Below, in pieces: positions 7,180-55,465 of a stretch of 64,000 nucleotides of DNA (positions are counted from its first letter, which is position 1; every line of letters begins with the position of its first letter). The DNA comes from an uncultured Dehalococcoidia bacterium (lineage in GTDB: Bacteria; Chloroflexota; Dehalococcoidia; Lucifugimonadales; Australimonadaceae), in contig OY282355.1 of the NCBI GenBank assembly GCA_958295525.1, positions 843,504 through 907,503 of the forward strand. The letters are read 5' to 3'. The position numbers and the translations under genes are program-made. The notes below the pieces were generated by a model. That model was not told the origin of the DNA. It was given only the letters and a program-made list of their open reading frames with translations, and did no database searches.

Positions 7180-7375
7180 GTCATTCCCGCGCAGGCGGGA
7201 ATCTCGCCCCCCTGCCGTCATTCCCGCGCAGGCGGGAATCCAGAGGCGCCCCAGCGCCGGACGAGGCGCGTAGCGCCTCGTCTCCAAAGCGCCCCACGCG
7301 CCACGTCATTCCCCCGCGTAGGCGGGAACCTCGCCCCCCTACCGTCATTCCCGCGCAGGCGGGAATCCCGCCCCC
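7180..7375. repeat. IR units and one composite repeat
   Basis: The 395-base gap before the terminase-like gene is mostly repeat. IR units occur near 7182, 7217, 7306 and 7344. The 7217 and 7306 units bracket a composite core with hairpins GGCGC-GCGCC and AGGCGC-GCGCCT and the CACGCGCCACGTCATTCC junction shared with other composite copies. Confidence 0.85.
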
Positions 7376-7558: not shown

Positions 7559-9238
7559 ATGATCCCTACCCCCAACGTCCCATTCGCGCAATACCGCGAC
7601 GACCCCGTCGCCTTCGTCCGCGACGTCCTCCCCGACGCCGGAGCGCCCTACGCCAAGCAGCGCGACATCCTCGAACTCCTCGCCCACCAACGCCACGTCT
7701 CCGTCGTCGGTTGCTACGCCTCCGGCAAAGACTGGACCGCCGCCCGCGCCGTCCTCTGGTGGCTCGAAACCCGCCCCCACGCCAAAGTCGTCGTCACCGG
7801 CCCAACCCAGCGCCAAGTCGAGGAGATCGTCTGGCGCGAAATGCGGATCGCCTACAAAGCCGCGTCCGTCCCCCTCTCCGGCAAAATGCTCCGCCGACGC
7901 TACGAAATCGACGACGACCGCTTCGCCATCGGATTCTCCACCAACAGGCCGGAGAACCTGCAGGGCTTCCACTCCCCCAACCTGATGGTCGTGGTCACCG
8001 AAGCCCACGCGATGAGGCCCGACTTCGAGGAAGCCCTCAGGCGCCTCAACCCCACTCGCGTCCTCCTCACCGGCAACGCCCTCTCCTCCACCGGCGAGTT
8101 CTACGAGTCGCACCGCGCCGGACGAGGCCGCTACCGCCGCGTCCGAATCTCCGCTTACGACACGCCCGTCTTCACCGGCGAGCCTATCGACGTGCCCGGC
8201 CTGATGACGGAGACCGACATCGCCGAGCGCGAGGAGGACTACGGCGCCGACCATCCGCTCTATCTGGCCGGCGTGCTCGCGCTGTTCCCCGACGCGCAGG
8301 ACGATTCGCTCATCGGGCGCCAGGCCGTCGAAGACGCGATGGAGGAGTCGGCGCCGGCGGGCGAGGGCGCGCCTACGGAAGATGAGGACGCCCGCGAGCC
8401 CGTCTACATCGGCGTCGACGTCGCGCGGTTCGGATTCGACAAGTCGGCGCTCGTGGCAAGGCGCGGGCAGCGCGTCATCGCGTCCAAAGCGTTCACAAAG
8501 ATGGACACGATGCGGCTTGCCTACGAGGCGACGGAGATGGCGCGTGAACTCAACGCGGAGGCGGTGTTCGTGGACGAAACCGGCGTCGGCGGGGGCGTCG
8601 TTGACCGTCTGCGCGAGTTGGGCTCGCCCGTCCACGGCGTGCAATTCGGCGGGAAGGCGCCGCATCGCGCAAGGTTCGCCAACCTCCGCTCCGAGATCTT
8701 CTGGGAGTTGCGCCGCCTCCTGAACGACCGCCTCATCGCCTTGCCGAACGACGATCACCTCGCGGGGCAACTGCTGTCGTTCCGCTACGACGTGTCGAGT
8801 TCCGGGCAAGTGCGGTTGGAGAGCAAGAAGGATATGCGCGGGCGCGGCCTGCCGTCGCCGGACAAAGCCGACGCGCTTGCGATGGCGTTTATGCGCCCGC
8901 CGTCCCTCCAGATTTGGACGGGCAACGAGCCCTTCCTGCGCTCGCCGCGCCTGCCTGCCGGCGTCCCCCTCCCTCCGCGCTCCGCCCCCCATGGGGATCA
9001 TCATTCCCGCGTAGGCGGGAATCCAGGAATCCAGGACGCAGACGGCGCCTCGCCGCCCAACGGCGCCGCAAGTGCGGACGGCGCCGAGGCGCCTCATGAC
9101 CGTCATTCCCGCGAAGGCGGGAATCCCGCATCCCCGTCCCCCAACGGCGCATCCGCATCCCCTGACGCGGAAGCGGAAGCCGCAGCCGCAGCCGCCTACG
9201 CCGAGGAAATCGCCCGCAACAGGTTCTTCGTAGGATGA
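7559..9238 (+). CDS. lone terminase-large-subunit-like ATPase/nuclease, repeats in frame
   Basis: A 559-residue protein resembling phage terminase large subunits (DNA-packaging ATPase plus RNase H-fold nuclease). N-terminal ATPase: Walker-A-like GCYASGKDWTAA (about residue 51) and Walker-B-like LMVVVTEAHA (about 143-152), then LLTGNALSSTGEFYES as a coupling motif. C-terminal nuclease: GVDVARFGFDKSAL (about 283) and AVFVDETGVGGGVVDRL, with DKADALAMAF near its end. ATG 7559 follows AAAGGAGG at 7541-7548; the open frame upstream is repeat read-through. The tail (about 480-525) includes two IR units translated in frame as HSRVGGNP and HSREGGNP. No portal, capsid or integrase genes are nearby, so it is not part of a recognisable prophage. 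Confidence 0.82.
   Translation: MIPTPNVPFAQYRDDPVAFVRDVLPDAGAPYAKQRDILELLAHQRHVSVVGCYASGKDWTAARAVLWWLETRPHAKVVVTGPTQRQVEEIVWREMRIAYKAASVPLSGKMLRRRYEIDDDRFAIGFSTNRPENLQGFHSPNLMVVVTEAHAMRPDFEEALRRLNPTRVLLTGNALSSTGEFYESHRAGRGRYRRVRISAYDTPVFTGEPIDVPGLMTETDIAEREEDYGADHPLYLAGVLALFPDAQDDSLIGRQAVEDAMEESAPAGEGAPTEDEDAREPVYIGVDVARFGFDKSALVARRGQRVIASKAFTKMDTMRLAYEATEMARELNAEAVFVDETGVGGGVVDRLRELGSPVHGVQFGGKAPHRARFANLRSEIFWELRRLLNDRLIALPNDDHLAGQLLSFRYDVSSSGQVRLESKKDMRGRGLPSPDKADALAMAFMRPPSLQIWTGNEPFLRSPRLPAGVPLPPRSAPHGDHHSRVGGNPGIQDADGASPPNGAASADGAEAPHDRHSREGGNPASPSPNGASASPDAEAEAAAAAAYAEEIARNRFFVG
8998..9131. repeat. two IR units inside the terminase-like reading frame
   Basis: IR units at about 8999-9022 and 9102-9125 lie inside the coding sequence and keep the frame, encoding a linker-like Ala/Gly/Asp/Pro-rich tail. 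Confidence 0.9.
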
Positions 9239-9257
9239 GCGCCGCGCCGGACAATAA

Positions 9258-9560
9258 CCGTCATTCCCGCGTAGGCGGGAATCCCGCATCCCATAACGCC
9301 TCGCCCGCAAACGACGGCGCAAGTGCGGACGGCGCCTCGCCAGACAGTAACCGTCATTCCCGCGCAGGCGGGAATCCAGGGGCGCGCAAGCGCCGGACGG
9401 GGCGCGCAGCGCCCCGTCTCCAAACCACCCCACGCGCCGCGTCATTCCCGCAAAAGCGGGAACCTACTGGGAGCGCATCCACGCGCCCTGCCCTGCGCGA
9501 GGCGGCATCCGCCGCCCGCATCCTGGATTCCCGCGTAGGCGGGAACCGCCCCGCCCATCC
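9258..9560. repeat. IR units and composite repeat downstream of terminase gene
   Basis: The 398-base gap between the terminase-like gene and the ABC transporter holds IR units near 9258, 9353, 9439 and 9525. The segment 9352-9478 is a clean composite element: IR unit, GGCGCGCAAGCGCC hairpin, GGGGCGCGCAGCGCCCC hairpin, CACGCGCCGCGTC, a second IR unit with a GCAAAAGC centre, then CCTACTGGG. A TACAAT box at 9594-9599 follows. Confidence 0.88.
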
Positions 9561-50364: not shown

Positions 50365-50520
50365 GCGGGTTTTCCGCCTGCGCGGGAACGACGAATTGGA
50401 GTAGGTTCCCGCTTTCGCAGGCAGGGCGTGGCGGGTGGGCGATTTGGAGACGGGGCACTACGCGCCCCGTCCGGCGCTTGCGCGCCTCTGGATTCCCGCC
50501 TGCGCGGGAATGACGGTCAT
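50365..50520. repeat. reversed composite repeat and IR units
   Basis: An IR-like unit near 50367, then a reversed composite from AGTAGGTTCCCGC (50400) through GGGGCACTACGCGCCCCG to the IR unit at 50492-50514. It is the mirror of the composite that follows the terminase-like gene at 9352-9478. Confidence 0.87.
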
Positions 50521-50535
50521 TGTCCGGCGCGGCGC

Positions 50536-50622
50536 TCATCCTACGAAGAACCTGTTGCGGGCGATTTCTTTGGCGTAGGCGGCCGCGGCGGCGGCTTCCG
50601 CGTCCGTGTCCGCGTCCGGGGA
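50536..50622 (-). pseudogene. fragment of the terminase-like gene 3-prime end
   Basis: On the minus strand the last codons of the terminase-like gene are repeated: an Ala-rich tail followed by YAKEIARNRFFVG and TGA, against YAEEIARNRFFVG in the gene at 7559-9238. Homology continues past the stop (GCGCCGCGCCGGACAA) into IR units on both sides, including the in-frame unit upstream (50628-50652). No other part of the gene is present, so this is a remnant carried or left behind with the repeat. Confidence 0.85.
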
Positions 50623-50713
50623 TGCGGGATTCCCGCCTGCGCGGGAATGACGGAGGTGGGGGGGATGACGGGCAGGGGGGCGCGGGGACGACGGGGCGCG
50701 GGCGTTGGCGGCG

Positions 50714-50752: not shown

Positions 50753-50829
<77 letters not shown>

Positions 50830-54773: not shown

Positions 54774-55445
54774 CAGTAGATTCCCGCCTGCGCGGGAATG
54801 ACGGGGCAAAGGGGCGAGGTTCCCGCCTACGCGGGAATGACGGGGCAAGGGGCGCTGCGCGCCGATCTGGATTCCCGCCTGCGCGGGAATGACGGAGGCA
54901 GGGGCGAGATTCCCGCCTGCGCGGGAATGACGGCACAGGGGGCGCGGCCGCATATGCGGGAATGACGGGGCAAGGGGGGCGCTGCGCGCCGACTGGATTC
55001 CCGCCTGCGCGGGAATGACGGGGCAAGGGGCGAGATTCCCGCCTGCGCGGGAATGACGGGGGCGGGGCGGGGTTCCCGCCTGCGCGGGAATGACGGGGCA
55101 AGGGGGGTGAGGTTCCCGCCTACGCGGGAATGACGGGGGCAAGGGGGGGCGCTGCGCGCCGACTGGATTCCCGCCTTCGCGGGAATGACGGAGGGCAAGG
55201 GGGGCGCTTGCGCGCCGACTGGATTCCCGCCTGCGCGGGAATGACGGGGCAAGGGGGGCGCTGCGCGCCGACTGGATTCCCGCCTGCGCGGGAATGACGG
55301 CACAGGAGGGGGGCGAGGTTCCCGCCTGCGCGGGAATGACGGGGGCGGGGCGGGGTTCCCGCCTTCGCGGGCAGGGCGGGGGCAAGGGGGGGGGGGGGGC
55401 TGTGCGCCGACTGGATTCCCGCCTGCGCGGGAATGACGGCACAGG
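54774..55445. repeat. dense array of about 15 IR units
   Basis: Fourteen full units and one partial, all in the same orientation (GATTCCCGCCTGCGCGGGAATGACGG-like cores), are separated by 10 to 35 bases of G-rich linker; five or six linkers share GGGGCGCTGCGCGCCGACTG. Spacing and linkers are too variable for a CRISPR array. This fills most of the 930 bases between ku and the amidohydrolase gene. Confidence 0.92.
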
Positions 55446-55465
55446 GGGGCAAGGGAGGGCAAGGG

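Follow-up and report, generated by a model that had tools for sequence, protein, structure and literature searches.

A short stretch of minus-strand DNA at 50.4–50.7 kb of the window (the whole 64,000-nucleotide stretch analysed here, from genome G000) repeats the end of a terminase gene that lies elsewhere in the window, and this raises the question of how the end of a gene came to stand by itself among palindromic repeats. The features concerned are as follows.

7183..7366, plus strand: palindrome array 5' of the terminase gene
7559..9238, plus strand: intact, stand-alone gene for a terminase large subunit (TerL; ATPase and RNase H-like nuclease; PHROG_2, E 8.6e-42)
9003..9124, plus strand: two in-frame dRS3-like units (9003-9022 and 9105-9124), translated as HSRVGGNP and RHSREGGNP
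9154..9238, plus strand: gene tail, ending in ...AYAEEIARNRFFVG and a stop, common to 15 other places in the genome
9263..9546, plus strand: post-stop palindrome array and composite repeat, with the first palindrome at 9263-9282
50396..50511, minus strand: composite repeat 3' of the solo tail, consisting of a palindrome, GGCGCGCAAGCGCC... and a second palindrome
50490..50653, minus strand: solo terminase tail, consisting of an in-frame palindrome, the final codons, the stop and a palindrome
50492-50511: post-stop palindrome of the solo tail, located by pattern scan
50536..50577, minus strand: last 13 codons, YAKEIARNRFFVG and a stop, one residue off the gene at 7559-9238
50629-50648: in-frame palindrome unit of the solo tail, located by pattern scan
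50753..50829, plus strand: tRNA-Lys(CTT) adjoining the solo tail
54780..55453, strand not given: dense 13-unit palindrome array at a synteny breakpoint

Self-alignment of the window gave a match of 164 bp at 83% identity (E 4.7e-52) between 50490-50653 on the minus strand and the terminase 3' end at 9100-9284, with 93% identity around the stop codon (50512-50610 against 9164-9262, E 7.5e-37) and with the final 41 bases of the conserved core the same in the window gene and the solo fragment. The minus-strand copy of the gene end, including final codons, stop and flanking repeat, which was first proposed in a sequence-only reading of the window, is thus real. It is not the exact repeat that was described: the final codons, the stop and the palindromes recur, but the C-terminus reads YAEEIARNRFFVG in the gene at 7559-9238 and YAKEIARNRFFVG in the fragment (a single residue change, YAKEI against YAEEI), and a unit of about 100 bp that separates the first palindrome from the composite repeat after the gene is absent from the fragment. 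The same reading had considered that 50.4–50.7 kb might be a conserved ancestral site; the solo-tail site at the tRNA-Lys is not ancestral, because the congener G002 has the same tRNA-Lys with neither tail nor array alongside. At the 3' end of this tRNA-Lys, G003 and G004 carry DNA that differs from that of G000 and G002, which we read as an apparently integrated element. By itself, the solo fragment is a relic.

We searched the 2.51-Mb genome and 15 relatives for the last 23 bases of the tail, allowing up to three mismatches. The genome held both further terminase copies and further tail fragments, with 16 tail occurrences in G000, whereas none was found in the 15 relatives with this search. 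Eight are the ends of intact TerL genes (at 136, 361, 715, 852, 1006, 1283, 1786 and 2278 kb, the window gene being that at 852 kb) and eight are solo tails (at 378, 402, 458, 474, 894, 1187, 1980 and 2313 kb, the window fragment being that at 894 kb). The 5' end of the main terminase subfamily occurs seven times in the genome, each time with a gene, and no solo 5' end of this subfamily was found there. Mapping of the borders tied the solo tails to the repeat in part: four of the eight (458, 474, 894 and 2313 kb) start exactly at a palindrome unit, while the other four start away from a palindrome, three of them at one shared start base (CGCCCGCAACAGG). Terminase C-terminal coding sequence is readable in frame upstream in four solo tails. 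An intact orthologous gene at a solo-tail site was not found in the congeners.

The TerL profile matches solved terminases (Gene 2 protein 4idh and others, E 2.6e-13), and the closest phage matches share about 33% identity. The Walker A lysine, the acidic EAH motif and the three RNase H-like nuclease aspartate motifs are intact in all full copies that were aligned. Housekeeping genes flank the copies (among others radical SAM, ketosynthase, DapF and TldD), and the families listed for 71 TerL neighbours include no structural phage family. A prophage around the terminase was ruled out, as the neighbours are chromosomal and form no contiguous phage gene cluster. In the terminase tree, in which the frameshifted row L139 is unreliable, seven G000 copies form one clade (100/100 support) and the window copy represents a separate lineage. 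The clade copies have dS values of 0.26–0.39 and dN/dS ratios of 0.06–0.13, and the scattered copies have therefore been kept as proteins under strong purifying selection. G025, which belongs to another genus of the same order, has its own six-copy clade (100/100 support, dN/dS 0.08–0.35). Each congener has 4–10 TerL matches, and a cultured relative, Candidatus Lucifugimonas marina, also encodes a terminase of this family. The congeners have several terminase sites in common among themselves, at about 90% identity, and for all eight G000 copies no orthologue of the flanking genes lies beside a congener TerL, i.e., there are no shared sites. In congener terminases (L057 in G001; split matches in G002–G005), the ATPase and nuclease domains are separated by in-frame inserts, and the insert of L057 resembles a translated palindrome repeat.

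The palindrome has the neisserial dRS3 pattern, ATTCCC-N8-GGGAAT, and is present at least 609 times in G000 (609 exact matches to one form). The same exact form occurs 15–78 times in the congeners and is absent from G025; G029, an order-level relative without this terminase family, has about 500 copies of the dRS3-like palindrome (500 in the exact form). Inside the window, 58 near-consensus units fall into 23 clusters. Every gene copy has units 68–191 bp upstream, in frame near its 3' end and 21–109 bp past its stop, but this array location is only modestly informative because about half of the intergenic gaps in the window (16 of 31) hold palindromes. Past the breakpoint at 54.8–55.4 kb, the genes of the congener G004 are different ones, followed by a TerL gene. 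Palindrome and terminase are uncoupled across the order, with 500 palindromes and no TerL in G029 and seven TerL matches and no palindromes in G025, so that the palindrome is not a terminus peculiar to a terminase element. A REP-RAYT-like coupling of palindrome and terminase was likewise ruled out at the order level by these two genomes.

G025 contains an intergenic unit of about 550 bp in about 40 copies with 91–95% identity (L111–L116, L264–L283), flanked by another palindrome family. Six of these copies precede TerL, most stand without a terminase, and the copied block ends only a few bases from the TerL stop codon. The unit has a predicted fold with almost no covariation; matches to known RNA families were weak and far under gathering scores, and such an assignment was rejected.

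Genes for further phage-type head proteins are located elsewhere on the G000 chromosome.

G000:C1:462418-463425 (L226:12263-13438): orphan portal gene (PF04860, E 2e-65)
G000:C1:2225576-2228008 (L240:6577-9009): prohead protease gene (PF04586, E 1e-9), an 82-aa gene and an HK97-type capsid gene (PF05065, E 4e-9)

G000 and each of five congeners have one portal gene and one capsid gene. The G000 portal gene, whose neighbours are a pyruvate-ferredoxin oxidoreductase gene and RDD/nucleotidyltransferase/EF-G genes, is syntenic in G000, G002 and G004 and is 86–87% identical among them, compared with 72–82% for the adjoining genes. Solo terminase tails flank the orphan portal, about 4 kb away on one side and 11 kb on the other. 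The protease-capsid locus is a small isolated cluster with a similar-looking gene order in G002–G005. Among the 59 genomes surveyed, the portal is present in 18 of the 19 that bear the terminase. G050 and G012 have TerL, portal and capsid side by side; in G050 there are also genes for an adaptor and a tail terminator, followed by a ribosomal L25 gene, and a tail-terminator lies near the capsid match in G025, G044, G047 and G054. The one tail-terminator family searched had no match in G000.

Our preferred reading, which we hold with moderate confidence, is that the fragment is a solo 3' 'scar' of a dispersed TerL family that is part of a domesticated set resembling a gene transfer agent (GTA). 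The solo tails are most likely scars of recombination between a palindrome and the in-frame palindrome that deleted the gene body. Three palindrome sites are relevant here: site a 5' of the gene, site b in frame near its 3' end and site c past the stop. Recombination between a and b would remove start and body and leave the tail between palindromes, much as in a solo LTR, whereas recombination between a and c would remove the whole gene without a trace, and no pairing of palindromes would yield a solo 5' end. The asymmetry between solo 3' ends and missing solo 5' ends is expected because palindromes stand before the gene, late in its frame and after it, and none stands between the 5' end and the body. 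Recombination between a and b would thus account both for this asymmetry and for the four solo tails that start at a palindrome; the start base shared by three of the remaining tails is not predicted by simple recombination and marks a limit of the model. Repeat-mediated deletion had been one of the options of the sequence-only reading, and it fits the asymmetry better than copying does, although no relative was found to have the gene at a solo site. The terminases are predicted most likely still to package DNA together with the products of the portal and protease-capsid genes, which are single and appear to be inherited vertically, but the terminase copies may have a function other than packaging. 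Candidate routes by which whole copies could have arrived at new sites are imported or packaged DNA recombining at the arrays, or some enzyme.

A possible but doubtful alternative treats the tail as a repeat unit of the arrays in its own right, comparable to the neisserial RS units between dRS3 elements, that was captured as the terminase C-terminus, in which case the gene would not be the seed of the solo tails. The restriction of the tail to G000 is consistent with such a capture, as are the start base common to three solo tails and the different ends of the other terminases (...VQVWW and ...LGVW in congeners, mostly ...IWV/IWT in other families). The tail is also more alike across copies than the rest of the gene, with 11–12 of 13 codons the same when the window copy is compared with the seven others, as against only about 47% of codons in the cores. 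However, comparable identity over 13 codons is reached in about 3% of core windows, for which reason homogenisation of the tail by gene conversion is likewise not proven, and the in-frame terminase C-terminal coding sequence upstream in four solo tails argues against capture.

Dispersal driven by the terminase itself appears improbable. The nuclease/ATPase would here cut and move its own gene together with the flanking repeat, as a terminase-encoding mobile element of which the solo tails would be non-autonomous relatives. The intact Walker A, acidic and RNase H motifs, the independent bursts in G000 and G025 and the G000 sites that are not in common with congeners can be cited in favour, and so can the G025 block that ends at the TerL stop and the 550-bp unit that precedes TerL in six of its roughly 40 occurrences. 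Against this, no inverted termini or target-site duplications could be defined around the copies, whose borders sit inside palindrome arrays; the palindrome family varies by lineage and exists without the terminase in G029; and the conserved single portal and capsid genes favour a packaging role. These points, together with the uncoupling of palindrome and TerL across the order, speak against the bounded, terminase-driven mobile unit that had been envisaged from the sequence. The broader suggestion that gene tail and repeat travel or recombine as a unit holds insofar as terminase and tail occur in multiple dispersed copies amid repeats, but a unit with definable bounds did not emerge.

We consider it very unlikely that a SAR202 packaging terminase spreads its own gene in a transposase-like manner, with the copies and solo tails representing packaging starts or a terminase-encoded mobile element. 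A simple one-off duplication of the gene end, for which the single pair visible within the window might be taken, is hardly credible and is refuted by the copy number, as the chromosome carries eight gene ends and as many solo tails.

The combined pattern suggests a putative domesticated GTA-like set whose terminase was unlinked, multiplied and moved round the chromosome of SAR202-type Chloroflexota, with the solo tails as a record of how terminase copies come and go. The multi-copy, position-changing terminase, set against the single stationary portal and capsid genes of these SAR202-related bacteria, is the point worth pursuing. The literature searched contained nothing relevant on terminases that stand alone or occur in several copies, nor on SAR202 terminase and portal, and no report of a GTA in SAR202.

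In a solo LTR, a single end of a larger element persists with a recombining repeat at its flank. The solo tails are alike in that one end of a larger element is left beside a recombining repeat, and differ in that this repeat is a short dispersed palindrome rather than the terminal repeat of the element and in that half of the solo tails have no left palindrome. The arrays resemble the neisserial dRS3/NIME arrays, in which ATTCCC-N8-GGGAAT units occur in hundreds per genome and alternate with longer units, and for which a role in gene insertion and deletion has been suggested (PMC3898611). On the opposite strand, the commonest G000 palindrome form fits the Nf1-target dRS3 subtype ATTCCCRCCTRCGCGGRAAK (PMC3898611). 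Unlike in the neisserial case, the host belongs to the Chloroflexota and units lie within a phage terminase reading frame.

With respect to the genomic criteria for GTAs (PMC9662315), G000 encodes caudoviricete-derived head and packaging proteins (TerL of PHROG_2, portal, protease and capsid) that are endogenized at several loci (TerL at eight loci, portal at 462 kb, protease-capsid at 2.23 Mb). For mostly vertical inheritance, a further criterion (PMC9662315), the observations are portal synteny in G000, G002 and G004 and a shared-looking capsid gene order in G002–G005, while TerL itself shifts position. Other criteria of that source are tail or connector genes for a caudovirion-like particle and particles that deliver random host DNA to other cells. 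The pattern conforms to the genomic criteria, for a putative system that is known here from its genes. The GTAs RcGTA, BaGTA and BhGTA, which are classed as viriforms, likewise combine a Caudoviricete-type TerL, portal, prohead protease and HK97-type capsid, and their genes are chromosomally fixed at several loci, vertically inherited and without a prophage around them, as far as the available parts of the two sources describe them (PMC9662315, PMC11841831). These parts describe no multi-copy terminase, and a multi-copy terminase is unusual for GTAs. The present set differs from GTAs in its eight scattered terminase copies and species-specific bursts, and in being known from genes and not from particles or transfer. 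If the set works, it would represent a GTA in an abundant lineage of the ocean and of sponges that is mostly uncultured. Independent multiplication of its terminase in two or more genera would then run counter to the view, stressed in the available part of PMC11841831, that GTAs give their own genes no preference.
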